From Emticicia sp. 21SJ11W-3 (GTDB lineage: Bacteria; Bacteroidota; Bacteroidia; Cytophagales; Spirosomataceae): a stretch of 64,000 bases of DNA. Position numbers and translations under genes: made by a program. The stretch is taken from assembly GCF_024138715.1 (NCBI RefSeq), contig NZ_CP092074.1, forward strand, positions 4,960,001-5,024,000. The letters are read 5' to 3'. Of the stretch, positions 9,702 to 63,379 are shown in pieces. Each line of letters opens with the position of its first letter. The stretch's first letter is position 1. A model generated the notes under the pieces. The model searched no databases. It saw only the letters and a list, made by a program, of their open reading frames with translations, and was not told the origin of the DNA.

Positions 9702-9719
9702 TAAAACTTAAACCCAATT

Positions 9720-9763: not shown

Positions 9764-9777
9764 TTATACAATTATTT

Positions 9778-11636: not shown

Positions 11637-11664
11637 AAGCCATTTTGATTGAAATAACCTGATG

Positions 11665-11696
11665 AATCCTGTTCTTTTACATAAAGGAGCAGGATT
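11665..11696. terminator. Terminator after the desaturase gene
   Basis: AATCCTG (11665-11671) pairs with CAGGATT (11690-11696), and the inner TTCTTT/AAAGGAG arms extend the stem with small mismatches. It is followed by a T-rich run on the plus strand. It abuts the stop codon of the convergent minus-strand gene. Confidence 0.65.
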
Positions 11697-12745: not shown

Positions 12746-12820
12746 TATTTGTGTACGAAGTTAATAAAAACCCTCACATTGCCCCATGAGGCATCACATA
12801 TTTTTGAGTGGTTTTGGGTC

Positions 12821-13564
12821 TTACCTGGCCATCAGTTTATCATAAACCGGTTTCAGTTGCGCGTCTCCAAAGCCATAAATACCTTGTTGCTCAGTAAATA
12901 GCCTGAACACGTTATGGAAATCGGTTTCTCCGTTTTCTATAATTTCAGCCAGTACGCGCTCATGTCTGGGCGTTTGTCCTTCCGCCGGAAAACGGTCTAA
13001 ATGCGCCTGAATTACCTGCTTTAAATACGGAAAACAGGCCGATTGACGCTGCGATAATTGAGCAAAAGCCTGTAGGTCATGCCTGCGATATGCCTGCCAA
13101 AGGTCATTCCCCAGTTGAATATCTTCTGGCTCCAGTTTGATGCGGGTTGCAAGGCTTGCCTCCAAATCATCTACCCCGGCATGGCCGAACTCCTGCCAGA
13201 TATCGGCCTCAGCCAGAAAAGTCGGGTACACCACATACGTTTTTCTGTTATTGGGTTGGTTATGAATTAACGAAATAACAAACCACATATTGACCTGACA
13301 AAACAAGTCATACCCAAACCACAGATGGAAAGTGGCATCGTGCGGGGCATTCATTATCTGGTCAAACTCAGAAACCGAATAGGCCTGATATTCATCCAGA
13401 CTAATACCATGACTATCCGCGCGGGTCTGCCAGAAATCGGGCAGGTTATCTCCGGCCAGGCTGCCGTCAATCAGTGCCTCACGGGCAATCATAACATCTC
13501 CCTCTATTGTGGTCTCTTTAAAAATCAAGGCCAGGGAGTCTCCATTCAGAACGTGGTAAATCAT
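12821..13564 (-). CDS. DUF1835-family protein
   Basis: This 247-residue cytoplasmic protein begins MIYHVLNGDSLALIF, which together with the REALIDG segment is the hallmark of DUF1835. The C-terminal part (RHERVLAEIIENG) corresponds to the accompanying DUF3658-like region. No catalytic function is established for the family that I can name. It is the second gene of an apparent two-gene minus-strand operon with the GNAT acetyltransferase, 7 bp downstream of its stop codon. Confidence 0.75.
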   Translation of the reverse strand: MIYHVLNGDSLALIFKETTIEGDVMIAREALIDGSLAGDNLPDFWQTRADSHGISLDEYQAYSVSEFDQIMNAPHDATFHLWFGYDLFCQVNMWFVISLIHNQPNNRKTYVVYPTFLAEADIWQEFGHAGVDDLEASLATRIKLEPEDIQLGNDLWQAYRRHDLQAFAQLSQRQSACFPYLKQVIQAHLDRFPAEGQTPRHERVLAEIIENGETDFHNVFRLFTEQQGIYGFGDAQLKPVYDKLMAR

Positions 13565-13571
13565 TGCTTTT

Positions 13572-14321
13572 TCATTTTTTCACTTCTCCAATCAACATAA
13601 GGCCTACTACTTGCAGGCCGCCTTTCAGTAAAGTTGCCTTCGATGCTTTATTTTCTATATTACAGCGGGCAGCGGGTATTTTACCTGCCGCATGGCACAC
13701 CCGTTTCAGTTCCTGTATCAGATACGCCCCCAGGCCTTGCCGGCGGTGGCTCTCTTTTACTTCCATATACAAATCTGCAAAAGGTTTGTTATAGTGCAAT
13801 AAAAAATCTCCGTTGGCTACCTCTTCTCCGGCTTTCTCAAGCACATAACCGCTGTCGCTTTCTGTTTGTTTGCCGTAAAGGGCTTCAAATGATTGTCTGG
13901 TCTGAAAAGTTACCCCTGCGGGTGCAGGCAGATTGGCATGCGGGCCGTCTTCAAACAAAATAACAGGGGCATGTATATTAACGGCAAACTCATACAGCAT
14001 GGTGGTAAGCAACAGCGCATTGCTTTGGGTTTCTATATATTGAACGCCTGAAGCCGACAATAAGTATGGAAACACCCTGCTTGCCAGATGCTGATACATA
14101 GGCAGCAGATAAAACTCAAAGAGGATGTCGCGGTCAGGTATCTCCTGCCCTTTTACGGCGGCATAGCCAATCATGGTATCGTCAGCATAAAGCAGGTATG
14201 CGTCTGACCAGCGGCGTTCATGTGTAGCATTGTATCTTACCTGCCGGTTTATTTCCTGCAGAAACAAATGGCGATACGGCAGAATCTCCCCCAGCGTTAC
14301 CTTTTCGACTTTGAATGGCAT
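13572..14321 (-). CDS. GNAT-family N-acetyltransferase
   Basis: This 249-residue protein has a C-terminal GNAT domain. Acetyl-CoA binding is shown by SHRRQGLGAYLIQELKRV (the RxxGxG loop), followed by the late beta strand and a helix ending the domain. The N-terminal part (about 1-120) also looks like a degenerate GNAT or CoA-acyltransferase lobe (YLLYADDTMIGYAAVKGQ). The substrate is unknown. It is the first gene of a tight pair with the DUF1835 protein. Upstream (about 14320-14343) is a 7-bp inverted repeat, ATGATAT...ATATCAT, that overlaps the start. Confidence 0.8.
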   Translation of the reverse strand: MPFKVEKVTLGEILPYRHLFLQEINRQVRYNATHERRWSDAYLLYADDTMIGYAAVKGQEIPDRDILFEFYLLPMYQHLASRVFPYLLSASGVQYIETQSNALLLTTMLYEFAVNIHAPVILFEDGPHANLPAPAGVTFQTRQSFEALYGKQTESDSGYVLEKAGEEVANGDFLLHYNKPFADLYMEVKESHRRQGLGAYLIQELKRVCHAAGKIPAARCNIENKASKATLLKGGLQVVGLMLIGEVKK

Positions 14322-14409
14322 GATATAACAGGTTTGGATATCATACTTTTAAATTTTCTTGTAGCAATTTATTGAAAATTTGTGGGATTCTGGAAATTGA
14401 ATTTACTAA

Positions 14410-16623
14410 TCAGGTGTTTTCACTGCTTTGATTTTCATTCAGGTATTTTAATAAATCCTCTCCCCATTTTTTCCAGATTTGAATAGACATCTGGCAAAAA
14501 TGTAATGCTTTGGGTACTTGCTCATGGTAGGGATAGGCATTTACAAAGCCATTATATGATAAGCCTAATGATTTATCTTTTTCAGGTTCACGATATAAAT
14601 AAAAAATTGCAAAGTTATTAAGCGTTTCAGCTAGAGAAATTTGGTAGGCTCCCGGATTTTGTAGTGCTAAATGATGCCTTATTTGAAGAGCTTCCAAATA
14701 CTCCTCTTTGGCCTTCCCTAATTCATTTTTAGCACTATGTAAATTCCCCAGATTATTCAAAGTCATCGCCACATCAGGCTGATAGACTTGTGGATTGGTT
14801 TTAGCTAAGTTTTTATAAATCTCTAAGGCCTCCTGGTATTCCTTCTCAGCGTCTTCTAACTCATTTTTAGCACTATGTAAATTCCCCAGATTATTCAAAG
14901 TCATCGCCACATCAGGCTGATAGACTTGTGGATTGGTTTTAGCTAAGTTTCTCCTTATCTCTAAGGCCTCCTGGTATTCCTTCTCAGCGTCTTCTAACTC
15001 ATTTTTAGCCCTATGTAAAACAGCCAGATTATTCAAAGTAGTAGCCACATCAGGCTGATAGACTTGTGGATTGGTTTTAGCTAAGTTTCTTCTTATCTCT
15101 AAGGCCTCCTGGTATTCATTCTCAGCGTCTTCTAACTCATTTTTAGCACTATGTAAATTCCCCAGATTATTCAAAGTCATCGCCACATCAGGCTGATAGA
15201 CTTGTGGATTGGTTTTAGCTAAGTTTTTATAAATCTCTAAGGCCTCCTGGTATTCCTTCTCAGCGTCTTCTAACTCATTTTTAGCACTATGTAAATTCCC
15301 CAGATTATTCAAAGTCATCGCCACATCAGGCTGATAGACTTGTGGATTGGTTTTAGCTAAGTTTTTATAAATCTCTAAGGCCTCCTGGTATTCCTTCTCA
15401 GCGTCTTCTAACTCATTTTTAGCACTATGTAAATTCCCCAGATTATTCAAAGTCATCGCCACATCAGGCTGATAGACTTGTGGATTGGTTTTAGCTAAGT
15501 TTTTATAAATCTCTAAGGCCTCCTGGTATTCCTTCTCAGCGTCTTCTAACTCATTTTTAGCACTATGTAAATTCCCCAGATTATTCAAAGTCATCGCCAC
15601 ATCAGGCTGATAGACTTGTGGATTGGTTTTAGCTAAGTTTCTCCTTATCTCTAAGGCCTCCTGGTATTCCTTCTCAGCGTCTTCTAACTCATTTTTATCA
15701 CTATGTAAAACAGCCAGATTATTCAAAGTAGTAGCCACATAAGGCTGATAGACTTGTGGATTGGTTTTAGCTAAGTTTCTTCTTATCTCTAAGGCCTCCT
15801 GGTATTCATTCTCAGCGTCTTCTAACTCATTTTTATCACTATGCAAAACAGCCAGATTATTCAAAGTAGTAGCCACATAAGGCTGATAGACTTGTGGATT
15901 GGGTTTAGCTAAGTTTTTATAAATCTCAAGTGCTTCTTTATAAATTTCTATTGCCTCATTAAAAGAATTATTTTCCTGCAAAAAATAGGCATAAGGAAAT
16001 AAATTATCTGTATTCTTATTAGCGCTTATTGATTTTTTGAAGTATTCCTTTGTTAATGCAATTCGATTTGGTAAAGTAAAATCTATAGCGGTTAAACGTG
16101 CTAATAAGAGAAATTCATTAGCGTTATTCAATAATGCTTTTTCATTTTCCTCTACTTCTTTTTCTAATCTATCCTTTTTTTCTAATAAGGTGTTTTGCTC
16201 CTTACTCATGAACTCTTTCTCTGATTCTAAAAAAGCTCTTGCTTCATTTTGCTTTCCATCTAAAAAGTAAGCTCTTGCCTTTTCTAGCCTTTCAGTATTA
16301 ATTGGTATTTTAGTTAAATCATTGGCTAAAGAAATTATTTCTTTTTCAAATAAATCTATCTCTTTTTGAATAACTTCTATCTCTTTATTAATTAAAGAAA
16401 TTGATTCTGCTAAAAAGGGAATAGGTGTTTCTTTATATGCTTTTTGTGTTTTATCTAATTTTTCTAAATTATTCTGTAAGGTTTCTTTTAGCTTATTATA
16501 ATCATCAAACTTGTAAATATTAACAACAATTGTGTTGTTATCACCAACAATAACATTCCCTGTAGCATCGATTGAGCCACCTACATAGTTTTTAATATTT
16601 TCTAATATTTCGCCTTGCTCCAT
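14410..16623 (-). CDS. TPR protein with nine near-identical 46-residue repeats and GDN-motif N-terminus
   Basis: This 737-residue protein has three parts. Residues about 12-34 (VGGSIDATGNVIVGDNNT...) form a short turn-rich beta motif shared with the upstream gene product. Residues about 40-160 are predicted coiled coil or long helices (Glu/Lys/Leu-rich). The rest is tetratricopeptide repeats: one or two divergent copies, then nine tandem 46-residue units (PQVYQPDVAMTLNNLGNLHS type), then a divergent tail. The start ATG overlaps the stop of the preceding gene by one base (TAATG), so translation is probably coupled. The region is visibly richer in A+T than its neighbours. There is no enzymatic domain. 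It is likely a sensor or scaffold, perhaps of a conflict system (inference). Confidence 0.8.
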   Translation of the reverse strand: MEQGEILENIKNYVGGSIDATGNVIVGDNNTIVVNIYKFDDYNKLKETLQNNLEKLDKTQKAYKETPIPFLAESISLINKEIEVIQKEIDLFEKEIISLANDLTKIPINTERLEKARAYFLDGKQNEARAFLESEKEFMSKEQNTLLEKKDRLEKEVEENEKALLNNANEFLLLARLTAIDFTLPNRIALTKEYFKKSISANKNTDNLFPYAYFLQENNSFNEAIEIYKEALEIYKNLAKPNPQVYQPYVATTLNNLAVLHSDKNELEDAENEYQEALEIRRNLAKTNPQVYQPYVATTLNNLAVLHSDKNELEDAEKEYQEALEIRRNLAKTNPQVYQPDVAMTLNNLGNLHSAKNELEDAEKEYQEALEIYKNLAKTNPQVYQPDVAMTLNNLGNLHSAKNELEDAEKEYQEALEIYKNLAKTNPQVYQPDVAMTLNNLGNLHSAKNELEDAEKEYQEALEIYKNLAKTNPQVYQPDVAMTLNNLGNLHSAKNELEDAENEYQEALEIRRNLAKTNPQVYQPDVATTLNNLAVLHRAKNELEDAEKEYQEALEIRRNLAKTNPQVYQPDVAMTLNNLGNLHSAKNELEDAEKEYQEALEIYKNLAKTNPQVYQPDVAMTLNNLGNLHSAKNELGKAKEEYLEALQIRHHLALQNPGAYQISLAETLNNFAIFYLYREPEKDKSLGLSYNGFVNAYPYHEQVPKALHFCQMSIQIWKKWGEDLLKYLNENQSSENT
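14668..15909 (-). repeat. Nine tandem 138-bp repeats encoding TPR units
   Basis: The repeat period is exactly 138 bp. The anchor GATAGACTTGTGG recurs on the plus strand at 14781, 14919, 15057, 15195, 15333, 15471, 15609, 15747 and 15885. Units read from 14781, 15195, 15333 and 15471 look identical over all 138 bases by eye; the others differ at a handful of positions. Every unit keeps the reading frame, so unit gain or loss would lengthen or shorten the protein by 46 residues. Confidence 0.95.
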
Positions 16624-17024
16624 TACTTTCCTGTAGTATTATTATCGCCTACAACAAAATCTCCTTGTATCGAATTATCTCCTATCACTACATTTTTACT
16701 ATTAATGATTCTAATTGCTTCACCCTTAGATTCCTTTTCTTTAATTACCTGATACATTTCTTGCAAATACTTTTTTGATTCAGGATTATCCTCTATTTCA
16801 CTTTCCAAAATAGCTTGAACCATTTTTTGCCTAGATTCACTTTCAGGATTAGCTTTTAATTTTTCTAAAGCTTCTTTTGGCTTTCCATCGTCATTTAGAA
16901 AAAAAGGTCTAATCCAGTTAATTGTAGCGCTTGTAAAATCACTTGTAAAGTCTTGAAAGGTTTTATTGTCATTTAGTTTTTTAGCTAAATAGCCAACAAT
17001 AAGAGAAATTGTTACAGGTTCCAT
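16623..17024 (-). CDS. Small protein with C-terminal GDN-repeat motif, coupled to the TPR gene
   Basis: This 133-residue protein has an N-terminal hydrophobic or amphipathic stretch (ISLIVGYLAKKL), a helical middle (ALEKLKANPESESRQKMVQ) and a C-terminus with two short turns, NVVIGDNS and FVVGDNNT. The same motif opens the downstream TPR protein. I recall similar small proteins (helical body, trailing GDN motif) encoded beside or fused to TPR, CHAT or STAND proteins in cyanobacteria and other bacteria, but no function is established that I can name. It is first in the two-gene unit; its stop overlaps the next ATG. A TATTTTTG box at 17050-17057 lies about 26 nt upstream of the start. Confidence 0.7.
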   Translation of the reverse strand: MEPVTISLIVGYLAKKLNDNKTFQDFTSDFTSATINWIRPFFLNDDGKPKEALEKLKANPESESRQKMVQAILESEIEDNPESKKYLQEMYQVIKEKESKGEAIRIINSKNVVIGDNSIQGDFVVGDNNTTGK

Positions 17025-17032
17025 TGAGTTTC

Positions 17033-17057
17033 TTGATTTTTTATAAAATCAAAAATA
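17033..17057 (-). promoter_or_regulatory. Inverted repeat and -7-like box upstream of the GDN/TPR module
   Basis: TTGATTTT (17033-17040) and AAAATCAA (17045-17052) are perfect 8-bp arms around TTAT. On the minus strand TATTTTTG (17050-17057) matches TAnnTTTG, so the arms overlap the predicted start of transcription. No good TTTG -33 was found. It is a candidate operator only. Confidence 0.35.
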
Positions 17058-17119
17058 GCACAAAAACAGAGACCAGAAAATAAAAGAAGAAGAATTATAA
17101 TAGCAGAGGAAGGCTTAAA

Positions 17120-17154
17120 AAAAAACTCCCAAGAAACTAAGTTTCAAGGGAGTT
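17120..17154 (-). terminator. Terminator downstream of tRNA-His
   Basis: Read on the minus strand, ACTCCCTTGAAAC, a TTA loop and GTTTCTTGGGAGT form a 13-bp stem with two central T-T mismatches, followed by nine T residues. It lies just 3' of the tRNA. Confidence 0.75.
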
Positions 17155-17158
17155 GAAG

Positions 17159-17233
17159 GGAGGAATATGGGGCTCGAACCCACGACCTTCGGAACCACAA
17201 TCCGACGCTCTAACCGACTGAGCTAAGACCTCC
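17159..17233 (-). tRNA. tRNA-His (anticodon GTG)
   Basis: The cloverleaf is read on the minus strand. The D-arm is GCTCAGTCGGTTAGAGC, the anticodon stem-loop TCGGA-TTGTGGT-TCCGA has GTG at 34-36, and the T-arm is GTGGG-TTCGAGC-CCCAT. The extra 5' G pairs with C73, as required for tRNA-His. CCA is not encoded. In the acceptor stem GAGGTCT against ATTCCTC, positions 5:68 and 6:67 are mismatched (T-T and C-T), which is unusual. The identity is clear; integrity of the acceptor stem is less so. Confidence 0.85.
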
Positions 17234-17324
17234 GTGCCTGTTTAAGGATTGCAAATGTAGAGAGATTTTGCAAAAAATCAAAAAAAATTTGTTCAATTTT
17301 GCCCTTACTGCTAAATTCGATACC

Positions 17325-19430
17325 ATGAGCGAGCGAAGAACATCCTTTTTTGATACAAAAATTGAAAACCTGAGAGTAATAGGCCCTGCAAAAGTAGAGC
17401 TGCTCAACAAGGATCTCAATATCTTCACTTATGGCGATTTGATTGAATATTACCCCTTCCGGCATGAAGACCGCACACAGTTTCACCGCATCAGTGAGCT
17501 GAACGAGGCCATGAATGCAGCGCAAATTAAAGGCAGGGTGCGGTCGTGGGACAGAGTGGGCGAAGGCAACAAAGAACGGCTGGTGGCGCAGTTTACCGAT
17601 GGCACCGGAATGATGGAGCTTACGTGGTTTCAGGGGCTTACTTTTTTAGAAAAAACCCTGCGCCTGCAAGGCGAATACATTGTGTACGGCAAGCCTACTG
17701 TTTTTGGCAACAAATGGCAGATTAGTCATCCTGAAATGGACCCGCTCACACCGGAGAACGAACGCGGGGGGTATTTTCAGCCGGTGTATTCCTTGACAGA
17801 AAAACTACGCAGACGGTACATAGACAGCAAGCAGATAAGCCGTTGGATGAAAGTGCTGCTGGGCTCGGCCAGACCGCATATCCGTGAAACCCTGCCCGGT
17901 TCGCTGATTCAGAAGTTCAGGCTTATCTCAAAACAGGATGCACTATATCATATTCATCTGCCATTGAATGCCGAGACGCTCAGGCAGGCAACCCGCCGTT
18001 TAAAATTTGAGGAGCTGTTTTATAACCAGTTCAGGCTTATTAAGCAGAAACTTATCCGCAAGCAGGATTTTGCCGGACAGATATTTACCAAAACGCAGTT
18101 GCTCACCGAGTTTTATCAACATCACCTGCCTTTTGACCTGACCAATGCGCAGAAGAAGGTAATCCGTGAAATTTTTGAAGATTTGCGCTCGGGCAAGCAG
18201 ATGAATAGGCTATTGCAGGGGGATGTAGGCAGTGGTAAAACCATTGTGGCGTTTATTACCATGCTATTGGCCATAGACAACGGCGCGCAGGCTTGCCTGA
18301 TGGCGCCAACCGAGATATTGTCTGACCAGCATTATACCAACCTGAAAAGATTTGCCGATTTGATAGGCATTAAAATAGCCGAACTAACGGGCTCAGTCAA
18401 TAAAAAAGGCCGTAAAATTATTGATGATGGCATTCTTGACGGCAGCATTCAGATTCTGGTAGGTACCCACGCTTTGCTGGAAGACCACGTGCAGTTTAAA
18501 AATCTGGGCCTTTGTATTATTGATGAGCAACATCGTTTCGGAGTAGCGCAAAGAGCCAAACTTTGGGACAAAAACCGAAATTTCAGACCGCATATACTGG
18601 TAATGACCGCCACGCCGATTCCAAGAACACTGGCAATGACCTTGTATGGCGACCTGGACGTATCGGTGATAGACGAACTGCCGATGGGGCGCAAGCCTAT
18701 CAAGACCATCCACCGGTATGATTCTGACCGCCTGCGGGTTTTTGAGTTTATGCGTAGCGAAATCAGGAAAGGCAGGCAGGTATATGTGGTGTATCCGCTG
18801 ATTGAAGAATCGGAAACATTATCGTTCAAAAACCTGATGGACGGCTTTGAAAGCATTGCAAGGGCGTTTCCGGAATATGCGCTCAGCATTGTACACGGCA
18901 AAATGGGCTGGAAAGAAAAAGACTATGAAATGCAGCGTTTCAAAAATCAGGAAACACAGATAATGGTAGCCACTACCGTAATTGAAGTGGGTGTTGATGT
19001 ACCCAATGCATCGGTAATGGTAATAGAAAGTGCCAACCGCTTTGGTTTGTCGCAGTTGCACCAGCTAAGAGGCCGTGTGGGTCGTGGAGCAGAGCAGTCA
19101 TACTGTATACTGATGACCGACTTTAAGCTGGCCAAAGAAACCCGCACCCGTATTGAAACCATGGTAAGAACCAATAACGGTTTTGAGATATCAGAGGTTG
19201 ACTTGTCGCTCCGTGGGCCCGGAGATATGGCCGGAACCCAGCAAAGTGGTATGCTAGACCTGAAAGTGGCCGACCTGGCCAAAGACGGCGAGATACTGAA
19301 ATATGCCCGCGAAGCCGCCATTGAGATTCTGGATAATGACCCTGAGATTGAAAAGCCTGAAAATGCACCCGTAAGGCATCACCTGCTGAATCTGCGCAAT
19401 AACGAAACCAACTGGAGCCGCATTAGTTAG
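17325..19430 (+). CDS. recG: ATP-dependent DNA helicase RecG
   Basis: This protein of about 701 residues remodels stalled replication forks and branch-migrates Holliday junctions. The N-terminal wedge/OB domain (about 1-250) includes LRVIGPAKVELLNK. The helicase core has Walker A GDVGSGKT at 299-306, DEQH at 400-403 and TATPIPRT. The C-terminal domain has RGRVGRG and the RecG-specific TRIETMVRTNNGFEISEVDL region. I chose the ATG at 17325 (MSERRTSFF) because the upstream in-frame ATG at 17268 would start inside AT-rich sequence about 35 bp from the tRNA. The gene is followed by a SprT-like gene 72 bp downstream. Confidence 0.93.
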   Translation: MSERRTSFFDTKIENLRVIGPAKVELLNKDLNIFTYGDLIEYYPFRHEDRTQFHRISELNEAMNAAQIKGRVRSWDRVGEGNKERLVAQFTDGTGMMELTWFQGLTFLEKTLRLQGEYIVYGKPTVFGNKWQISHPEMDPLTPENERGGYFQPVYSLTEKLRRRYIDSKQISRWMKVLLGSARPHIRETLPGSLIQKFRLISKQDALYHIHLPLNAETLRQATRRLKFEELFYNQFRLIKQKLIRKQDFAGQIFTKTQLLTEFYQHHLPFDLTNAQKKVIREIFEDLRSGKQMNRLLQGDVGSGKTIVAFITMLLAIDNGAQACLMAPTEILSDQHYTNLKRFADLIGIKIAELTGSVNKKGRKIIDDGILDGSIQILVGTHALLEDHVQFKNLGLCIIDEQHRFGVAQRAKLWDKNRNFRPHILVMTATPIPRTLAMTLYGDLDVSVIDELPMGRKPIKTIHRYDSDRLRVFEFMRSEIRKGRQVYVVYPLIEESETLSFKNLMDGFESIARAFPEYALSIVHGKMGWKEKDYEMQRFKNQETQIMVATTVIEVGVDVPNASVMVIESANRFGLSQLHQLRGRVGRGAEQSYCILMTDFKLAKETRTRIETMVRTNNGFEISEVDLSLRGPGDMAGTQQSGMLDLKVADLAKDGEILKYAREAAIEILDNDPEIEKPENAPVRHHLLNLRNNETNWSRIS

Positions 19431-31227: not shown

Positions 31228-33870
31228 ATGATTCCGCAATATCTTAAAATTAAAGGGCTTTACTCTTACAAAAGCCTGCAGGAGATAGATTTCTACAACC
31301 TTACAGATGCCACGCTGTTTGGTATCTTCGGTTCTGTTGGCAGTGGTAAGTCGTCCATACTGGAAGCCATTGTTTTTGCACTTTATGGAGATACAGAACG
31401 CCTGAATAAATCGGGCGATGAGCGCTATTATAATATGACCAATCTCAGTTCTAACGAACTGTTCATTGAATTTACCTGCCTCGCCGGAAAAGACGACACT
31501 AAGTATCGCTTTGTTGTGCAAGGTAAACGAAGCAACAAAAACTTTAAAGAAGTAAAAGTAGAACGGAAGGTCTATCAGTGGCTTAATGAGACATGGATGC
31601 CGGTATCTCTGGAGGAAGTAACCGAAAACGCCATTGGTTTAAGCTATGAAAATTTCCGTCGGACAGTCATAATTCCACAGGGCAATTTTCAGGAGTTTAT
31701 AGAATTGAAAGGCCGGGACCGCTCAGAAATGATGAAAGTGCTATTTGGCCTTGAACGTTTTGACCTGGCCGAAAAGAACAAACGCCTGACCGAACGGAAT
31801 CTGCAGGAATTACAAAGAATAGAAGGCCAGCTATTAAGTTTAGGCGAAGATACTCCCGAAAGCATTGCTCAGCAAGAGCAGGAGCTACAGTTAAAAAAAG
31901 AGATGAGCAAAAGTCTGGAGGCAGAACTTTTGCTAAAACGCAATGAAGAAAAGCAGCAGAACGAACTGCTCAAGCTGTTTTCTAACCTGAATGCCACTAC
32001 CCGCAGGCATGAGCTGCTGAAAGAAAAAGAGAAATGGTTTAAAATGCGGGAAGAAAAACTGAAACTTTATGAAAAATGTGTCTTGAATTTCAAATCGTTA
32101 TTTGACCAGAAAACGATAAAAGAAAAAGAATATAATCGTGAAAAAAACGAGATAAACGCTAATAAGGCCACATTGGTCGACAAACAATCGCGCTTTCAGT
32201 CTATTCTTATAGAATTGGATAAAATTAAGCCTTTTTATGAAAAACGAGAGGAATATATCGAGAAAGCCAAAGAATTAAACACCATCAAAAGTCTAAAGAC
32301 AATTGAAAAAGATAAAAACACCTTACAAGAAAGAATAATCAAAGGCAAAGAATTATTAAAAAACAAAGAAGAGATCATACAAGGCCTTTTGCAGGACAAA
32401 CATATACTGGAGCAAACCCTGGAAAAGAGAAAAGCCGAACTGAAAGAACAAAAAACCGAGTTAAAGCTAGATGAGGAACTGCTGCATCTAAGAGTTCAGA
32501 AATCGTTACAGCAATTTGCTGACGCGCTGAAAGACAACGAGCCTTGTCCGCTTTGCGGTTCAGTGCATCACCCTGAAATTCTTAGCTCTAATGATGACTT
32601 TGATGCAAAAATCAGCCTGGTTGTCCGCCAGAAAGAAAGCCTGAAAACCGAAATAGAACAAGCAGAAGCCAGAATTAAAAATACCCTTGCGCAAATTGAA
32701 AAAGAAAATGCCGATAGAGCCTCGTATGAAAGGGCGCTATCTAAACTCACCGAACAGCTTGCCGGTTTTGAGGCACAAAAAGAAGTATTTTCAGGACAGT
32801 TAAAATTTCTGAACTGGTCTGATTATGATTCCCTTGGCATTGCAGACATAGAAACCCAACAAATACAAGCAGAAAACGAGCATAAAAGAATTATTGAAAG
32901 CTTTACCCGCCTGGATGTAGAACACCGCTCGGTAGAAGGTCTGATAAAAACAACTGAGGGGGTATTGACAACGCTGCTGGCCAATCTTGATAAACAGACA
33001 AAGGCTTTGCAAACCATACAGCATAGCATTAACCTGCAATTGAAACAGGATGGTTTTCTGACTGAGACAGATGTGCAGGAAATACTGAAACAAAACCTGA
33101 TGATTGAAAAAGAACGACAGGAGATTCAGGCGTTTCAGACAGATTTACAGGCTACCGAACAAACCCTGGAACAATTGCTGAAAGATACGGAAGGCCGTAA
33201 ATATGATGCAGAAACACACACCCAGATAAAAGAAACCATTAAGATAAGTGAAACCCGGTTTAATGATCTGAAGAAAGAAGAAGGCAGGCTTGAAAAAGAG
33301 ATTCAGAGCGCTATTGAAAACCTGAAAACCAGGCAACTGCTTACCGCAGAAAAGAAAAGACTTGAAATAAGAAAAGACAACCTTGACACCCTGCAAAAGC
33401 TATTCAAAGCCAATGGGTTTGTTGATTTTGTGTCGAGCATTTACCTGAAAAACCTGGCCAATGCAGCTAATGAGCGTTTCCACCGTATGACACGCCACCA
33501 ATTGCACCTGGAAATAAATGCCGATAATGATTTTGAGGTGAGAGACCTGCTGAACGGCGGCAAAACCCGATTGCTAAAGACCCTCTCTGGCGGGCAGAAA
33601 TTTCAGGCTGCCTTATCGCTGGCCCTGGCACTTGCAGATAATATTCATAACCGGGTGCAGTCGCGCCATAATTTCTTCTTTCTGGACGAAGGGTTCGGCT
33701 CGCTTGACAAAGACTCCTTACAGATTGTTTTTGAGACGCTTAAGTCTTTGCGCAAAGAAAATCGTATTGTAGGTATTATATCGCACGTAGAAGAATTACA
33801 ACAGGAGATACAGACATACCTGAAAATTGAAAATACCGAAGACGGCAGCAAGGTTTCAAAAAGCTGGTAA
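31228..33870 (+). CDS. sbcC: Exonuclease SbcCD subunit C (Rad50-like SMC ATPase)
   Basis: This 880-residue SMC-family ATPase has Walker A GSVGSGKS at 35-42, two long coiled-coil arms and a zinc hook CPLC at 440-443. The ABC signature LSGGQ is at about 786-790 and Walker B FFLDEGFG has Asp820/Glu821. It bridges DNA ends and drives SbcD. This is somewhat shorter than E. coli SbcC (about 1050), mainly in the coiled coils, which is common. Second gene of the sbcDC operon, ending before a bidirectional terminator. Confidence 0.95.
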   Translation: MIPQYLKIKGLYSYKSLQEIDFYNLTDATLFGIFGSVGSGKSSILEAIVFALYGDTERLNKSGDERYYNMTNLSSNELFIEFTCLAGKDDTKYRFVVQGKRSNKNFKEVKVERKVYQWLNETWMPVSLEEVTENAIGLSYENFRRTVIIPQGNFQEFIELKGRDRSEMMKVLFGLERFDLAEKNKRLTERNLQELQRIEGQLLSLGEDTPESIAQQEQELQLKKEMSKSLEAELLLKRNEEKQQNELLKLFSNLNATTRRHELLKEKEKWFKMREEKLKLYEKCVLNFKSLFDQKTIKEKEYNREKNEINANKATLVDKQSRFQSILIELDKIKPFYEKREEYIEKAKELNTIKSLKTIEKDKNTLQERIIKGKELLKNKEEIIQGLLQDKHILEQTLEKRKAELKEQKTELKLDEELLHLRVQKSLQQFADALKDNEPCPLCGSVHHPEILSSNDDFDAKISLVVRQKESLKTEIEQAEARIKNTLAQIEKENADRASYERALSKLTEQLAGFEAQKEVFSGQLKFLNWSDYDSLGIADIETQQIQAENEHKRIIESFTRLDVEHRSVEGLIKTTEGVLTTLLANLDKQTKALQTIQHSINLQLKQDGFLTETDVQEILKQNLMIEKERQEIQAFQTDLQATEQTLEQLLKDTEGRKYDAETHTQIKETIKISETRFNDLKKEEGRLEKEIQSAIENLKTRQLLTAEKKRLEIRKDNLDTLQKLFKANGFVDFVSSIYLKNLANAANERFHRMTRHQLHLEINADNDFEVRDLLNGGKTRLLKTLSGGQKFQAALSLALALADNIHNRVQSRHNFFFLDEGFGSLDKDSLQIVFETLKSLRKENRIVGIISHVEELQQEIQTYLKIENTEDGSKVSKSW

Positions 33871-53932: not shown

Positions 53933-54640
53933 ATGTCTATTAAAGTTCAGCACCTCAGCAAAGTTTACGGCACACAAAAAGCTGTTGATAATATATCTTT
54001 TGAAGTAAAAAAAGGAGAAATTCTGGGGTTTCTGGGCCCAAATGGTGCCGGAAAATCAACGACCATGAAAATCCTGACGGGGTATATTCCGGCTACCGAA
54101 GGCACTGCCGAGGTAAGTGGCTTTGATGTAAAAACGGCGCCTATTCAGGTTAAAAAGAATGTAGGATACCTGCCTGAACATAATCCGCTGTATCTGGATA
54201 TGTACGTGATGGAATTTCTATCCTTTGCAGGCTCACTTTATGGCCTGAAAGGACGAGACCTGGAAATTAAAATAGATAACACGATAGAGCGCGTTGGGCT
54301 TGGGCTTGAAAAACACAAAAAAATAGGGCAGCTATCAAAAGGTTACCGACAACGTGTCGGCCTTGCCCAAGCGTTGATACATAACCCGGATGTGTTGATT
54401 TTAGACGAACCAACCACCGGCCTTGACCCTAACCAACTGGTTGAAATACGAGACCTCATTAAGCACATAGGCAAAGACAAAACCGTTATTTTCAGTACAC
54501 ACATCATGCAGGAGGTAGAGGCCATCTGCGACCGCGTGGTAATCATTAACCGTGGGAAAATTGTAGCCGACAGCACCCTATCTGAACTGAAAAAAGATGG
54601 CAAGGCAATGGAAGAGGTTTTTCGGGAGTTGACGGTGTGA
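53933..54640 (+). CDS. gldA: ABC transporter ATP-binding protein, GldA-like
   Basis: This 235-residue ATPase closely resembles GldA, the ATP-binding subunit of the gliding ABC complex (with GldF and GldG): Walker A GPNGAGKST at 35-43, GYLPEHNPLYLDMYV, signature LSKGYRQRVGLAQ, Walker B VLILDEPTTGLD and the FSTHIMQEVEAICDRVV segment. GldA proteins I recall are about 300 residues. This one lacks the region between the helical end (IVADSTLSEL) and the terminal motif (EEVFRELT), so it looks internally shortened. No gldF or gldG is nearby. An alternative is a generic ABC-2 exporter ATPase. Confidence 0.75.
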   Translation: MSIKVQHLSKVYGTQKAVDNISFEVKKGEILGFLGPNGAGKSTTMKILTGYIPATEGTAEVSGFDVKTAPIQVKKNVGYLPEHNPLYLDMYVMEFLSFAGSLYGLKGRDLEIKIDNTIERVGLGLEKHKKIGQLSKGYRQRVGLAQALIHNPDVLILDEPTTGLDPNQLVEIRDLIKHIGKDKTVIFSTHIMQEVEAICDRVVIINRGKIVADSTLSELKKDGKAMEEVFRELTV

Positions 54641-57592: not shown

Positions 57593-58327
57593 ATGCTTGA
57601 AATCTGTTGCTTTTCTTTAGAATCATGCCTGACAGCCCAGAAGGCCGGGGCGTATCGGGTTGAGTTATGTGGAGGTATGTTTGAGGGCGGAACCACCCCT
57701 TCAGCAGGATTAATAAAATTGGCTCGCCAGCATCTTTCAATCAAATTGTATGTCATGATTCGTCCGCGCGGAGGAGATTTCTGTTATTCAGATACTGAAT
57801 TTGAGGTAATGAAAGCCGATATACAAACTGCCAAAGAATTGGGAGCAGACGGTGTAGTGTTTGGTATCCTGAATCCGGACGGTACGGTTGATGCCATCCG
57901 TACAAAAGAATTAGTTGAACTGGCTCGGCCCATGAAAGTAACCTTTCACAGAGCATTTGATGTAAGCGTAGAGCCTTTTGAGGCGTTGGAAGCGGTTATT
58001 GAAACCGGCTGCGAAAGAATACTTACCTCAGGGCAAAAGAATACCGCCATTGACGGCATAGGCCTACTGAAACAATTAGCTGAAAAGGCAGCCAATAGAA
58101 TAGAAATTATGGCAGGCAGTGGTGTAAGCGCCCAGAACGCAGCGCAATTGTTAGAGGCGGGTGTCCATGCCCTGCACATGACAGGCAAAGGCATTGTAAA
58201 CAGTAGAATGGAATACCGCAAGGCGGATGTGAGTATGGCAAGCGCAGCCCTTACTAACGAATTTGAAATTTATGAAGCCGATTTTGATAAATGCACGGCA
58301 GTAGCAGAGATTATCGATAATGCCTGA
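57593..58327 (+). CDS. cutC: Copper homeostasis protein CutC
   Basis: This 244-residue TIM-barrel protein starts LEICCFSLESCLTAQKAGAYRVELCGG. It has the FEGGTTPSAGLI and MIRPRGGDFCYSDTEFEVM segments characteristic of CutC, and ends with the GSGVSAQNAAQLLEAGVHALHMTG strand. CutC is linked to copper tolerance, but its biochemical role is still uncertain. Cytoplasmic. It follows the T9SS cargo gene by about 100 bp with no clear terminator between. Confidence 0.9.
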   Translation: MLEICCFSLESCLTAQKAGAYRVELCGGMFEGGTTPSAGLIKLARQHLSIKLYVMIRPRGGDFCYSDTEFEVMKADIQTAKELGADGVVFGILNPDGTVDAIRTKELVELARPMKVTFHRAFDVSVEPFEALEAVIETGCERILTSGQKNTAIDGIGLLKQLAEKAANRIEIMAGSGVSAQNAAQLLEAGVHALHMTGKGIVNSRMEYRKADVSMASAALTNEFEIYEADFDKCTAVAEIIDNA

Positions 58328-58491: not shown

Positions 58492-60363
58492 TCAGACAAA
58501 TTTAAAATGATAGTTTTCTTCTTTTAACCTGCTGATTACAACGGCTGCGTTGACGGCCTGCATTAATCTTATCCCAACTATGTTTTCAGCGGGGGTAAAT
58601 CCTTCTTCGGGTTTAATGTTAATAAAATTATTGATGATTTTATGTTTGTCAAGGTACTTATCAAAAATAAATTCATATTTATTAAGACTTGAGATTGTCT
58701 GAAGCAAAGACTTTTGACTCTTTATTTTGTTTTGGTATCCGGGTGAATATGGAAGTTTATCCATTCGTCTGGTAATCTCATCAGGCACATTTCCTTTCAT
58801 AATGTTTCTAATAAGACTTCTTGGGATTCCTCCTTTCACAAAAAAAGGCAGAGGAATATCCATCAAAAACTCCAGAATGGACTTATCTAAGTAAGGAACG
58901 GCCGATTCTATGCCGAAAGCAGCGTTTCTTGTATGAAACATAGCAGTTATTTTTCCGAAACGGCCTTCATTTATCTGATACTCAGCATTCGAATGAAAAT
59001 CTTTCAAAGGAGTATATTCGATTACCCTGTGGCTGTATTTTTTTACAAAATCACTTTTCAGCGTAGTTTCATTTTGCCAGTTTATCCTCCCCATTTTTAA
59101 CAAAGGTCGAAGATGCCTGTATAACTCTGTATGGGGAATAAATTTCTTAACAAACACTTGTAACATTGATAGGTTTTCCCGCTTTCCAAACTCTTTTATT
59201 AGCTGTAACGCCTCTTTAAATTGCCTTTGATAGATTAATTGATAAACAACCAAATCACCTTTCCATGAAACCCCAAAGTCTCCTCCGTACCCGGTAAATA
59301 AAGTATGTACTTTTTTTTCTCTGGCTAAGGAGAGTATTGCTTTATCCAGATAATGAAATGGATTTGGAATACTTTCGTCGAATAAAAAACTTTCGTTTAA
59401 ACTATCAATAGATCCGATTTCGGAAGAATCAACAAAATTTTGTATAATATTAGGATACCGCCTCCCAATGGATTCGATGTATTTACGCTCATCTCTGGCA
59501 ATGCCCTCATAGCCAACAGGCAATACCGAGGAAAAAGTATAAAGAGGTTTGTTTCTTTTTTGCAGCAGGTCTGAAAGTACAAAAGCCAGGCAAGAAGAAT
59601 CAAGCCCGCCACTTAGAGTAAGACCAACCGGCCGTTCATAGTCCAGCCTTTTTTCAACGGCGTTATAGACTAAATGAAGCAGACAGTCGTACCAATCCTG
59701 CTCTTTTTTAAAAGAATATTTTCCACTTGCTTGCAGGCGCCAGTATTTTTCTATGCCAACTTTTCCACGTTTAAGTGTTAGTATGTTGCCGCCACAGAGC
59801 GAAAACACCTCCTGATTGTAAGTGTGCACGGGTAGTCCCTTTTTAAAAAAGTAATCAATCAGCACATCCTCATTGAAAATATCAGGTGTTTGCTTAACGG
59901 CGGTAACACCTTTTATTTCATTACAAAAGATAAATTCATCTTCAGAATCATAATAATATAATGGTCTATGACCTACCGGGTCGGCTGCCGCAAAGAGTTC
60001 ATGGCTTGCTTTGTTCCATATCACAAACGCAAATTCTCCTTCCAGAAATTGTACGCATTTTTCGCCCCACTTGTAAAATGCCATCAATATAAGCTGGGCA
60101 TCATTTAGTAAATTTACGTTATTGCCCAACATAGAAGCTAATTCGGGCCTGTTATCTATACGGGCATCTGCCGTAATAATTAGGTGCGCCAGGTAAGGGT
60201 ATGCATCTTCAATAAGGTGGGTATTTCCCAAGACTATATCCGTGTCTGTCCATGACGAGCCATCATCTGGCTTAATGCGAGAAACAGACTGAAAAACCTT
60301 TTCCAGAATAGTCTCATCTACCTTTTTCCCGGTTTTATTGATACGTCCGAATATTAAACCCAT
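58492..60363 (-). CDS. Asparagine synthetase-like protein, candidate lasso peptide cyclase (C)
   Basis: This 623-residue protein has the AsnB layout. An N-terminal glutaminase-like domain (about 1-210) begins MGLIFGRINKTG, so the nucleophile Cys that normally follows Met is absent and glutaminase activity should be lost. The C-terminal ATP-binding synthetase domain has the PP-loop SGGLDSS at 251-257 and a LFTGYGGDFGVS segment. Loss of the Cys is typical of beta-lactam synthetases and of lasso cyclases, which adenylate a carboxylate and form a macrolactam. Neighbours (HPrK-like kinase, PqqD protein, small precursor) favour the lasso role. It is the last of the locus on this strand. Alternative: another AsnB-like amide synthetase. 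Confidence 0.78.
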   Translation of the reverse strand: MGLIFGRINKTGKKVDETILEKVFQSVSRIKPDDGSSWTDTDIVLGNTHLIEDAYPYLAHLIITADARIDNRPELASMLGNNVNLLNDAQLILMAFYKWGEKCVQFLEGEFAFVIWNKASHELFAAADPVGHRPLYYYDSEDEFIFCNEIKGVTAVKQTPDIFNEDVLIDYFFKKGLPVHTYNQEVFSLCGGNILTLKRGKVGIEKYWRLQASGKYSFKKEQDWYDCLLHLVYNAVEKRLDYERPVGLTLSGGLDSSCLAFVLSDLLQKRNKPLYTFSSVLPVGYEGIARDERKYIESIGRRYPNIIQNFVDSSEIGSIDSLNESFLFDESIPNPFHYLDKAILSLAREKKVHTLFTGYGGDFGVSWKGDLVVYQLIYQRQFKEALQLIKEFGKRENLSMLQVFVKKFIPHTELYRHLRPLLKMGRINWQNETTLKSDFVKKYSHRVIEYTPLKDFHSNAEYQINEGRFGKITAMFHTRNAAFGIESAVPYLDKSILEFLMDIPLPFFVKGGIPRSLIRNIMKGNVPDEITRRMDKLPYSPGYQNKIKSQKSLLQTISSLNKYEFIFDKYLDKHKIINNFINIKPEEGFTPAENIVGIRLMQAVNAAVVISRLKEENYHFKFV

Positions 60364-60416
60364 AGTTTGATTAATCTTTTTATGGAGGATTTTTTGAAGA
60401 AGACTCTTTCAATAGT

Positions 60417-61322
60417 CTATTGAAGGATAGAAGCTTCAATATGGTTTATCAGGTCTTCGGGGTTGCAGACAAGTGGCCTCGATACTTCAAGAATAACTGC
60501 AGACTTTGAAAGTTCTGTTAGAATCGTAAAGCTACGGGATAGCATAGTATTACTTTGTAATAGAATGGGCCGGTAAATATGACTTCTTAACGCCTCAAAG
60601 GCGTTAATTCCGCTTAGAGTTTTAATACTTACATCAGGGATATCCTTTTTTTTAATAATATAAATTTTCTTTAAAGGATATTGATCTTTGTTAAATTGCT
60701 TATGAAAAAAGATGCCGAATTTTTCCAAATCATATTTGATTCTGAACGAGCGGTCACGGAAAGTATCATCATTAAGTTTTTCGATTGTGTCATCCCAGAG
60801 TTTAATCATCGGATATGAAGCACTGGCCAGTACCATTTGGTCTTCATCTTTTTTTAGTACCAGTACATCATCCCCAAATATATTAAACCCTCTTTTAATT
60901 AAACCTGCCAGAGTAGTCGATTTCCCGGCCTGAGATTCGCCCGCAATTAGAATCAAAGCTTCATTGCGAATAATGGCAGAAGCATGGAAAGGCAATAATT
61001 TCCTTTGAGTGAGGATTCCGGCCATCACAGTTGCCAGAATATAAAGCCTGATGGTTCGCATTTCCTGTTCAGCGCAGGGTTCAACTACCACGGTGTGTCC
61101 ACCAAAAGCATAATAATTAGCAACGTTGGTAACTTTAAACAACAATGCCTGCTCGTCAATTTTGTAGAAGAATCCTTTTTTTGTTAACTGAATACCACTG
61201 ATAGTTTCTGGTGTTATGCCATATTTAATTACTAAATCTGGTACAGAAAATTCGCAAGACAGTAATTCCGGAAATTCAATTTCCGATAAAATACGCAAAC
61301 CAAACCCCCAATAATTAAACAT
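60417..61322 (-). CDS. HPr kinase-like protein, candidate lasso precursor kinase (K)
   Basis: This 301-residue protein is related to the C-terminal catalytic domain of HPr kinase. PFHASA precedes the P-loop GESQAGKST at 128-136, followed by FNIFGDDVLVLKK. It lacks the N-terminal domain of true HPrK. In the paeninodin locus such a kinase phosphorylates the C-terminal Ser of the lasso precursor, and the precursor here ends in Ser. It lies 53 bp upstream of the cyclase gene on the same strand, so they are likely cotranscribed. Divergent from the PqqD gene. Role inferred from family and context. Confidence 0.75.
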   Translation of the reverse strand: MFNYWGFGLRILSEIEFPELLSCEFSVPDLVIKYGITPETISGIQLTKKGFFYKIDEQALLFKVTNVANYYAFGGHTVVVEPCAEQEMRTIRLYILATVMAGILTQRKLLPFHASAIIRNEALILIAGESQAGKSTTLAGLIKRGFNIFGDDVLVLKKDEDQMVLASASYPMIKLWDDTIEKLNDDTFRDRSFRIKYDLEKFGIFFHKQFNKDQYPLKKIYIIKKKDIPDVSIKTLSGINAFEALRSHIYRPILLQSNTMLSRSFTILTELSKSAVILEVSRPLVCNPEDLINHIEASILQ

Positions 61323-61340
61323 TAAATCTAAATATATTTA

Positions 61341-61348
61341 TAAATTTG
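61341..61348 (+). promoter_or_regulatory. -7-like promoter box upstream of the PqqD-like gene
   Basis: TAAATTTG (61341-61348) fits TAnnTTTG in the short gap between the divergent kinase and PqqD genes. No good -33 was found. The predicted leader would be roughly 30-40 nt. Confidence 0.35.
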
Positions 61349-61388
61349 CCTGATAATTGTGCCAAGTATCGGCAATGGTTATCAAAAA

Positions 61389-61685
61389 ATGATAGAAATG
61401 AAAAAGTTATTACACCTTGAAAGTTTTGTTGCCCGCAAAACAAATGATTTGCAATTCGTTGAATTTGATAATGAAACAGTCATAATGGATTTGAAAAGTG
61501 GCAACTATATTAACCTGAATCATACTGGAGCTATAATCTGGCTATACTTGGAACAGCCCATTCTTGTAAAAGATTTGATTCAGAAGCTCATGCAGAAATT
61601 CAAAGTAGAAGAATCTCAGTGTACAATTGATACCCTGGAATGCCTCAATTTAATGTATTCAGGAAATATTGTAGTGGTGAACTGA
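61389..61685 (+). CDS. PqqD-like RRE protein, candidate lasso B1
   Basis: This small protein of about 98 residues (start ATG at 61389; a GTG at 61359 would give 108) resembles the PqqD fold used as a RiPP recognition element: FVEFDNETVIMDLKSGNYINLNHTGAIIWLYLEQP followed by a helix (LVKDLIQKLMQKF) and DTLECLNLMYSGNIVV. In lasso pathways this B1 protein binds the leader peptide and brings it to the leader peptidase and cyclase. It lies between the kinase and the precursor gene, transcribed opposite to both. Confidence 0.75.
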   Translation: MIEMKKLLHLESFVARKTNDLQFVEFDNETVIMDLKSGNYINLNHTGAIIWLYLEQPILVKDLIQKLMQKFKVEESQCTIDTLECLNLMYSGNIVVVN

Positions 61686-61702
61686 AATGTAAGGCTTAAA
61701 AA

Positions 61703-61755
61703 TACTCACATCTGCAAACACTCCTGTATTTATTCTCATGTTACAGATGTGAGTA
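61703..61755. terminator. Inverted repeat between the PqqD-like and precursor genes
   Basis: TACTCACATCTG (61703-61714) and CAGATGTGAGTA (61744-61755) form a perfect 12-bp stem with a 29-nt loop between convergent genes. Either a weak bidirectional terminator or a protein-binding site. The T-tracts are poor. Confidence 0.45.
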
Positions 61756-61768
61756 ATTTATGCTAGCA

Positions 61769-61912
61769 TTAGCTTATTTCAGATGCATAATCTTCTCCTG
61801 CATCGCTCGAACCCATAGTTACTTCCATTATAGAAAGTATTTCTACTGAGGGTTTTGTCCATTCTTCAAGGGTAAATGTGTCTTGAGCACTTTCAGTTTT
61901 TTCTGTTTTCAT
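61769..61912 (-). CDS. Predicted lasso peptide precursor (47 residues)
   Basis: A short ORF from ATG at 61912 to TAA at 61769 encodes 47 residues. The leader (1-33) holds WTKPSVEIL, a WxxP variant of the YxxP recognition motif, and ends Thr32-Met33, giving the penultimate Thr typical of lasso leaders. The predicted core GSSDAGEDYASEIS (34-47) starts with Gly. Glu at core position 7 or Asp at 8 could form the macrolactam ring; the AGE at 5-7 resembles the 7-residue ring of xanthomonins as I recall it. It ends in Ser, the residue an HPrK-like kinase could phosphorylate. The surrounding C, K and B1 candidates support the call. No mass or homology data were available. Confidence 0.7.
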   Translation of the reverse strand: MKTEKTESAQDTFTLEEWTKPSVEILSIMEVTMGSSDAGEDYASEIS

Positions 61913-62182: not shown

Positions 62183-63379
62183 TTACTTCTTCGCAGCCAG
62201 TTCGGCAATTTTTTCATGAATCATTACCTGATTGGACATGATTTTAGAGAAACCTCTTACATCATCGCCAGACCACGCATTGTTCATTTCTCCATAGCTG
62301 CCAAATACCGGCGACATCATATCGTAGTCTGACTTGATACCCAATAACTGGAAATGATACGGTGCCAGTTGCACACGCACCTCACCAGTTACATTGGTTT
62401 GGGTACTTTCAAGAAACGTTTCAATATTACGCATCAGTGGCTCAAGGAATTGGCCTTCGTGCAAAAGCATACCATACCATTCGGCAAGGTTCTGCTTCCA
62501 GTATTGCTGCCATTTGGTAAGCACGTGTTTCTCTAACAAATGGTGTGCCTTGATGATAATCAACGGAGCAGCGGCCTCGAATCCTACACGGCCTTTAATA
62601 CCGATAATGGTATCGCCCACGTGGATGTCACGGCCAATCCCATACGGAGAGGCTAGCTCTGACAAACGACGGATGGCATCTACCGGATTTTTAAACCGGC
62701 GGCCGTTTACACCTTTCAGTTCACCTTTTATGAATTGTAGCGTTATTTCGCTTCCTTTTTTCCTGGTTACCTGTGTCGGGAATGCGCTTTCGGGTAAGAA
62801 CCCATCAGAAGTGAGGGTTTCTTTACCTCCTACTGAGGTTCCCCATAAACCCTTATTAATTGAGTAGGCTGCTTTATGCCATTCGCGCACTACGCCTTTC
62901 GACTTCAGAAAATCTATTTCAGCCTCACGCGACAAACGCAGGTCACGGATAGGCGTAATAATTTGTGCATTAGGAAGAACGATTCTGAAAACCATATCAA
63001 AACGAACCTGGTCGTTTCCGGCACCTGTGCTTCCGTGTGCAACAGCTTCGGCGCCAATTTCTTTGGCGTAGTCAGCCACTGCTACTGCCTGAAACATACG
63101 CTCGGCACTTACTGAAAGCGGATACGTATTGTTTTTCAGGATATTGCCATATACCAGATACCTGATACATTTCTGATAATATTCGCCTACCATGCGGGCG
63201 GTATGATGGTTTTTAACGCCCAGTTCATACGCCTTTGTTTCAATATCCTTGATTTCTTCTTCTGTAAACCCACCCGTATCAACCAATACGGAATGCACTT
63301 CATGACCCAGCTCTTCGGTCAGGTACTTTACGCAAAACGAGGTGTCTAATCCTCCACTATAGGCTAAAACAACTTTCAT
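62183..63379 (-). CDS. argG: Argininosuccinate synthase
   Basis: This 398-residue ATP-dependent enzyme condenses citrulline and aspartate in arginine synthesis. It opens KVVLAYSGGLDTS with the PP-loop, and has AHGSTGAGNDQVRF, the KAAYSINKGLWGTSVGG signature, and a C-terminal end that matches in length. The start ATG is immediately followed by the conserved strand. It is upstream of the precursor gene on the same strand but separated by 270 bp and a terminator, so it is not part of the lasso locus. Confidence 0.95.
   Translation of the reverse strand: MKVVLAYSGGLDTSFCVKYLTEELGHEVHSVLVDTGGFTEEEIKDIETKAYELGVKNHHTARMVGEYYQKCIRYLVYGNILKNNTYPLSVSAERMFQAVAVADYAKEIGAEAVAHGSTGAGNDQVRFDMVFRIVLPNAQIITPIRDLRLSREAEIDFLKSKGVVREWHKAAYSINKGLWGTSVGGKETLTSDGFLPESAFPTQVTRKKGSEITLQFIKGELKGVNGRRFKNPVDAIRRLSELASPYGIGRDIHVGDTIIGIKGRVGFEAAAPLIIIKAHHLLEKHVLTKWQQYWKQNLAEWYGMLLHEGQFLEPLMRNIETFLESTQTNVTGEVRVQLAPYHFQLLGIKSDYDMMSPVFGSYGEMNNAWSGDDVRGFSKIMSNQVMIHEKIAELAAKK

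Follow-up and report, generated by a model that had tools for sequence, protein, structure and literature searches.

A locus in a 64,000-nucleotide stretch of the genome of Emticicia sp. 21SJ11W-3 (contig NZ_CP092074.1, positions 4,960,001 to 5,024,000; hereafter the window, itself part of a single 5.18-Mb contig) is most likely of a phosphorylated-lasso kind that is widespread in Bacteroidota, its identity being well supported and its chemistry inferred. Judged from their sequences, its four genes, for a lasso macrolactam synthetase (C), an HPrK-like kinase (K), a PqqD-like discrete RRE (B1; RRE, recognition element for ribosomally synthesized and post-translationally modified peptides, RiPPs) and a precursor peptide (A), would provide four of the five activities expected for a phosphorylated lasso peptide. 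We give a probability of about 70% to the reading that they form a phospho-lasso pathway whose transglutaminase-like leader peptidase, B2, is not encoded locally. An earlier note on this DNA had proposed the same four identities for open reading frames (ORFs) that are indeed all present and open on the strands it gave (Table 1), and hidden Markov model matches, a tree of C, the His-Lys-Asp-Asp set of K and the precursor pattern of A bear it out.

The AsnB-like protein C lacks Cys2, the nucleophile of asparagine synthetase B, as the earlier note had recognized: it starts MGLIFG, with Gly at position 2, whereas all five AsnB references start MC. It carries the motifs SGGLDSS (at 251) and GYGGD (at 358), matches Pfam Asn_synthase (89.9 bits, over the cut-off) and GATase_7, and has lass_lactam_cya as its best NCBIfam model, at 291.9 bits versus 171.4 for asn_synth_AEB. 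Phylogeny had been named as a check, and in a 34-row tree the five AsnB rows make up one side of a 100/100 branch, with the window C on the other among lasso cyclases. Six reference rows of this tree are labelled by context: a Halopiger row, although annotated asnB, counts as a lasso cyclase on account of its neighbouring B1 and B2 genes, four rows are annotated only as “asparagine synthase-related”, and the Paenibacillus record carries no annotation. The window C belongs to a 100/100 clade of five together with the cyclases of Chitinophaga sp. CF118 (41% identical, from a locus with a complete lasso set), of two further loci (L074, L077) and of the 2.97-Mb locus of its own genome, and lies outside a 100/99 clade of Priestia aryabhattai, Paenibacillus and Butyrivibrio cyclases. 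Given this tree placement and the missing Cys2, we reject C as an asparagine synthetase.

The catalytic set of lasso kinases, His-Lys-Asp-Asp (PMC9266682), is kept in K as H113, K134, D151 and D152, with a P-loop reading GESQAGKST. A profile of ten such kinases searched against the PDB ranks HPrK first (E 4.7e-06), and the AlphaFold model of K (predicted local distance difference test, pLDDT, 85.6; predicted template modelling score, pTM, 0.83) finds HprK/P, 1kkl_B, as its best Foldseek match (E 2.9e-06). K is 47% identical to an Aquirufa kinase, 52% to that of a Bacteroidales metagenome-assembled genome (MAG), and 32% to the kinase of a Paenibacillus locus with C, A, B1 and B2 ORFs; its best plasmid matches come from Paenibacillus cellulosilyticus (31.8%) and Priestia aryabhattai (29.9%), the latter from a locus annotated with a lasso cyclase, a paeninodin family peptide, PqqD and B2, in which K is called an “aldolase”.

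B1 matches Pfam PqqD at 50 bits, over the cut-off, and is likelier to start at ATG 61389 or 61398 than at GTG 61359. Paeninodin RREs are marked by Gly in place of Asn (PMC13381572). In the column of LppB N33, located via Priestia with LppB and PbaB1 themselves outside the alignment, the window B1 has Asn, as do six other Bacteroidota B1s, and the references have Gly in Priestia aryabhattai and Asn or Asp in four other cases. By this residue the likeness to paeninodin does not extend to the RRE, so the label “paeninodin-type” that the earlier note had given to the whole set holds for precursor and kinase only; of B2 and a D-type exporter, which also belong to the paeninodin set, neither was found in the window.

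The precursor A reads MKTEKTESAQDTFTLEEWTKPSVEILSIMEVTM up to the proposed cleavage site and GSSDAGEDYASEIS after it. It combines a WxxP motif (WTKP), Thr(-2), Gly1, Glu7/Asp8 and a final Ser, with Met directly before Gly1; from this pattern we infer the cleavage site and the ring residue, and the C-terminal Ser14 of the core is the proposed phosphorylation site. A strict version of the pattern, written post hoc (W/Y-x-x-P, Thr(-2), a small residue 1, an acidic residue at about 7-9, final Ser), occurs in one of the 287 small ORFs of the window versus 0/26,502 in 64-kb sequences simulated 60 times by a first-order Markov model; with the final Ser left out, this looser form gives 1/287 and 21/26,502, respectively, so that the unlikelihood rests on the full pattern. 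Among 43 other loci of at least 10 kb, 23 of 3,393 small ORFs fit the strict pattern, corresponding to 14 distinct peptides with the window's own included, a recurrence rather than an independent control, as K or C is present in 41 of these loci and was the reason for retrieving most of them. The comparison of neighbourhoods in relatives, also suggested earlier as a check, found precursor-like peptides beside homologous K and C genes. The 46 such candidates, the window's included, were picked by hand from first screens that took W, Y or F and did not require a final Ser, small-ORF matches unlike precursors being dropped by eye; all 46 have WxxP, a frequency that hand picking may favour for W, 40 end in Ser, and 15 have Thr(-2) together with a small first core residue and an acidic one at 7-9.

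A as a chance ORF is accordingly rejected, given the absence of the strict pattern from the Markov sequences and the similar precursors beside homologues. That C is an ordinary asparagine synthetase which merely adjoins a chance ORF is barely credible: the name of its Pfam domain would fit, and the looser pattern is expected about once per three windows (21 in 60 Markov sequences), but neither accounts for the missing Cys2, the tree, the lack of strict matches in 26,502 random ORFs or the like precursors beside homologues.

From these identities a sequence of steps can be proposed. By homology, B1 would bind the WTKP leader of A; K would phosphorylate the hydroxyl of the C-terminal Ser before cyclization, as paeninodin-type kinases and the conserved terminal Ser suggest; the leader would then be cut after Met(-1), and C would join Gly1 to the Asp8 (or Glu7) side chain in a macrolactam ring around a threaded tail. 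For leader removal the likeliest source of B2 would be the single intact copy of the genome, at 0.919 Mb, acting in trans; this is the weakest part of the explanation and, taken alone, less likely than not.

Several observations weigh against the pathway as proposed. The profile search that the earlier note had called for put PqqD and Asn_synthase over their Pfam cut-offs, but Hpr_kinase_C (27.4 bits, cut-off 33.3) and the NCBIfam lasso models below theirs: lass_lactam_cya for C misses its curated cut-off, lasso_PqqD_Bac for B1 scores 60.1 bits against a cut-off of 80, and A matches PQQ_syn_pqqA (15.3 bits, E 0.014) slightly better than lasso_PadeA_fam (15.0 bits, E 0.016; cut-off 27), both below cut-off, versus 57.7 with lasso_PadeA_fam for the Priestia control precursor. 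The P-loop of K has Gln131 where eight of ten aligned kinases have Gly, the TM-scores of its model with HprK/P are about 0.3 (query) and 0.5 (target), PEPCK ranks beside HprK/P, and the direct pairing of the window C with the Chitinophaga C is supported 90/23 only. Neither C nor K occurs at the corresponding site in any of ten other genomes of the genus. The intact 0.919-Mb B2 is of a divergent subfamily, 25% identical to the B2 of Chitinophaga sp. CF118, the B1 adjoining it is only 23% identical to the window B1, and for the precursor beside it no reading with its only acidic residue after WxxP at core 7-9 yields Thr(-2); a supply of B2 from this copy is therefore uncertain.

No B2 was found in the window by Pfam PF13471, a seven-row profile at E 0.1 or ORF inspection. 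One hidden within the locus is ruled out, PF13471 and the profile being negative there and K and C having the same lengths as in Chitinophaga (301 and 623 aa). In Chitinophaga sp. CF118 (L070), K (10001-10906), B2 (10908-11339) and C (11345-13216) follow one another with gaps of 1 and 5 nt, versus a bare 53 nt between K and C in the window, from which B2 appears, by this comparison, to have been lost. Genome-wide, PF13471 and the profile find one intact B2 (918998-919423), 4.1 Mb from the locus along the contig or about 1.08 Mb if the contig is circular and 50-58% identical to three B2s of the genus and family (L120, L122, L123), and a second at 3.6157 Mb, broken by stops and near transposase genes; the profile also finds, at 2.724 Mb, a weak stop-containing match (E 0.005). 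B2 usually neighbours K in the family: of the 88 K matches in 150 genomes, 54 have a B2 match no farther than 10 kb away (41 of them within 510 nt, and with the broken B2 of the window genome counted among the 54). The other 34 have none so close, a figure inflated by divergent B2s and contig ends; 20 of the 34 are in genomes with a B2 match elsewhere. L077, considered as a further B2-less locus, was set aside because its B2 sits just beyond the fetched stretch. A motif scan of the window for an ABC exporter of type D returned a single ORF, SbcC/RAD50-like, at 31228-33870, and a 235-aa ABC ATPase without a membrane domain lies outside the locus at 53933-54640.

The missing B2 poses the question of whether a lasso peptide can be matured by a peptidase from another, divergent locus or without one. 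Removal of the leader without B2, by another host protease or through translation that starts internally at Met(-1), with methionine aminopeptidase then taking off this Met, is improbable. The latter route would leave exactly Gly1, and a Bacteroidales MAG (L069/G150) has K, C and A with neither B1 nor B2 within 10 kb, its draft being B2-negative by profile with only a sub-cut-off Transglut_core3 match; yet Bacillota precursors that adjoin B2 genes (Priestia L127, Paenibacillus L128) have Met(-1) too, which may therefore mean nothing, and in the MAG the B1 is at a contig edge, so that B2 may be lost to assembly, and A lacks the Thr(-2) pattern.

Table 1. Features of the locus (window coordinates) and lasso parts elsewhere in the Emticicia sp. 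21SJ11W-3 genome
Feature	Position	Strand	Remarks
C, lasso macrolactam synthetase (AsnB-like, without Cys2)	58492-60363	-	623 aa, open ORF
K-C junction	60364-60416		53 nt, without B2; site of B2 in Chitinophaga sp. CF118 (L070)
K, HPrK-like kinase	60417-61322	-	301 aa, open ORF
Short divergent region between K (-) and B1 (+)	61323-61388		presumed promoter region for K and B1
B1, PqqD-like discrete RRE	61359-61685	+	108 aa from GTG 61359, open ORF
A, precursor peptide	61769-61912	-	47 aa, open ORF
A, proposed leader (residues 1-33)	61814-61912	-	WTKP at residues 18-21
A, proposed core GSSDAGEDYASEIS	61772-61813	-	ring Gly1 to Asp8 or Glu7
919-kb locus	919 kb		C, K, sulfotransferase, B1, B2, A
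1.19-Mb locus	1.194 Mb (L119 8276-8635)	-	orphan B1; K, C, B2 and precursor not found in 17-kb stretch
2.97-Mb locus	2.97 Mb		K, sulfotransferase, two A, C
3.20-Mb locus	3.20 Mb		C, no partner found
3.32-Mb locus	3.32 Mb		C and four A-like ORFs
3.61-Mb locus	3.61 Mb		C, A, ORF weakly sulfotransferase-like (below cut-off), JmjC/cupin protein, K, B1, broken B2
3.94-Mb locus	3.94 Mb		K and A

The lasso parts of this genome are scattered (Table 1), with five kinase and six Asn_synthase matches, four B1s and one intact B2 in all. Whether they form a dispersed phospho-lasso system, in which kinase, cyclase and precursor loci, most without a peptidase, share one B2 in trans or do without B2, is in our judgement doubtful. 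Such a system, if real, would parallel for lasso peptides those RiPP systems whose maturation enzymes are remote, and would belong to a branch of Bacteroidota that combines paeninodin-like precursors with a non-paeninodin RRE.

The locus is flanked by cutC (57593-58327, +) and argG (62183-63379, -), and its guanine-cytosine (GC) content is 0.366 versus 0.418 for the window. Of the ten other genomes of the genus, five have cutC and argG at a distance of 59-111 bp, three have a sulfatase gene in a gap of about 1.6 kb (those with the most similar argG, 97-98%; the sulfatase confirmed by Pfam in one of the three), one has the two genes 53 kb apart and one has them on separate contigs; no DNA similarity to the window gap was found in five gaps compared. 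From these arrangements and the lack of similarity, the locus is specific to the lineage of Emticicia sp. 21SJ11W-3 among the genomes compared. The lineage-specific site and low GC would suit a recently acquired cluster in decay, with B2 and transporter lost and A at most phosphorylated and never matured, as would the stop-broken B2 at 3.6157 Mb near transposase genes and the 3.94-Mb locus, which has only K and A; within flanks that by eye seem the same, Emticicia C21 carries K, B2, B1, A and a nucleotidyltransferase. Even so, C, K, B1 and A are open and of the same length as in relatives, with catalytic residues and the Thr(-2)/Ser precursor intact, and we regard decay as unlikely.

TAnnTTTG is the -7 promoter motif of Bacteroidota. 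It is fitted by TAAATTTG on the + strand of the K-B1 intergenic region and by TAGCTTTG upstream of A, both matches without a chance control, and the same scan gave no match for K.

A linear phosphorylated peptide, with no lasso, is a product that we consider quite improbable. Relatives that have K, B1 and an NTP transferase but lack a cyclase are described as linear polyphosphorylated peptides (LPPs) in Bacillota (PMC13381572), and no C was found at the Emticicia loci L085 and L080; the window, however, holds a full-length C of the lasso clade and a core with Gly1 and Glu7/Asp8. LPPs share with the locus a kinase, a discrete RRE and a [Y/W]xxP leader, but they have no cyclase, use an SpI-type peptidase and are phosphorylated on Ser3 in YxxP precursors; the lasso-clade C sets the window locus apart from them. 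These two Emticicia loci and a third, L045, resemble the cyclase-free systems of Bacillota, with no cyclase found at any of them, and at the matching place the window genome has K and A only: L085 (10001-13715) has K, an A-like peptide, B1, B2 and a PF14907 nucleotidyltransferase, L080 (10001-11984) K, an A-like peptide and B1, and L045 (8823-10044) K and an A-like peptide.

The earlier note had pointed to no well-studied example of this exact set in Bacteroidota, but the kind is not exceptional there. When 150 genomes of the family were sampled, 67 of them, among which is that of the window, gave K matches at E 0.001 or better, although the weakest of these matches may be other HPrK relatives; 17 loci belong to Chitinophaga, Aquirufa, Mucilaginibacter, Pedobacter, Emticicia and several MAGs. 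In the Bacteroidota symbiont Amoebophilus asiaticus, a putative lasso cluster, Aasi_0899-0902, has been reported as transcribed, with no kinase named in the available part of its description (PMC8831229). The division of the genes between two strands, which had been thought unusual, is true of the locus but not peculiar to it, as B1 lies opposite K-B2-C-A in L070, and C and B1 lie opposite K, B2 and the precursors in Aquirufa beregesia L046. In the latter, eight tandem precursor-like ORFs (10696-12929) have similar leaders and varied cores, six of them ending in FS.

Set beside known systems, the locus is most likely a Bacteroidota variant of phosphorylated lasso pathways. With the paeninodin type of Bacillota, represented by Priestia aryabhattai L127 and Paenibacillus L128 and ordered C A K B1 B2 D (PMC5067487), it has in common the HPrK-like K, the discrete B1, the lasso C, the WxxP leader, Thr(-2) and the C-terminal Ser; it differs in using both strands, in having neither B2 nor a D-type exporter in the window, in the Asn of B1 and in a C outside the clade of the Priestia aryabhattai, Paenibacillus and Butyrivibrio cyclases. 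Its nearest complete relative found, Chitinophaga sp. CF118 L070, likewise has a B1 divergent from K, the nearest C and a precursor with T(-2), G1, D8 and a final Ser; it differs from the window in its B2 between K and C, in the position of A after C and in its ABC exporter of 585 aa (ABC_membrane and ABC_tran). The Bsf type of Bradymonas sediminis also has its own kinase and a discrete B1 outside Bacillota, whereas BsfK phosphorylates Ser3 of a precursor that ends in Asp and has Ile(-2) and a YxxP leader (PMC10368454). Phosphorylation of a C-terminal Ser by HPrK-like kinases is established in Bacillota and a proteobacterium (PMC8498205; PMC9266682). A 2026 study restricts paeninodins to Bacillota and describes most Bacillota lasso leaders as WxxP, unlike those of other phyla (PMC13381572). 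In the Bacteroidota loci the WxxP leader, the kinase and the terminal Ser are found again, in company with RREs that have Asn in the place of the paeninodin Gly, and if the products are confirmed, the Trp leader and C-terminal phosphorylation would not be tied to the Bacillota RRE. Tietz 2017 is said to name Bacteroidetes as an underexplored source of lasso peptides (PMC7533575); that paper and Zhu 2016 lie outside our literature search, which found no description of kinase-bearing lasso clusters from Bacteroidota, and we make no claim that such clusters are unpublished.

A sulfotransferase-like gene stands near K at L009, L011, L048 (the same place as L073), L051, L074-L079, L082, L084 and L122-L124, recognized by PF00685 in L009, L011 and L074 and by a home-made profile in the others, which suggests a further or alternative tailoring step; such a gene has been seen in some Firmicutes lasso clusters (PMC8498205). 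Reading the associated precursors as having Ile/Val(-2) is plausible but ambiguous and was not used as evidence. Beside the 919-kb lasso precursor, six similar ORFs of 173-176 aa (L009, positions 914000-929000 of the window contig, 9641-13455, -) start MDEYIG, MDEYVG or MDEYLG, and one that was checked matches Pfam Phage Tail Collar; a lasso-type locus on an Azospirillum plasmid (L132) is also adjoined by three genes annotated as tail fiber protein. At L010, a B2 remnant with stops and frame changes (12480-13060) is followed within a few hundred bases by a transposase gene of the Mutator type (13401-14630), of which a near-copy lies at 16677-17906.

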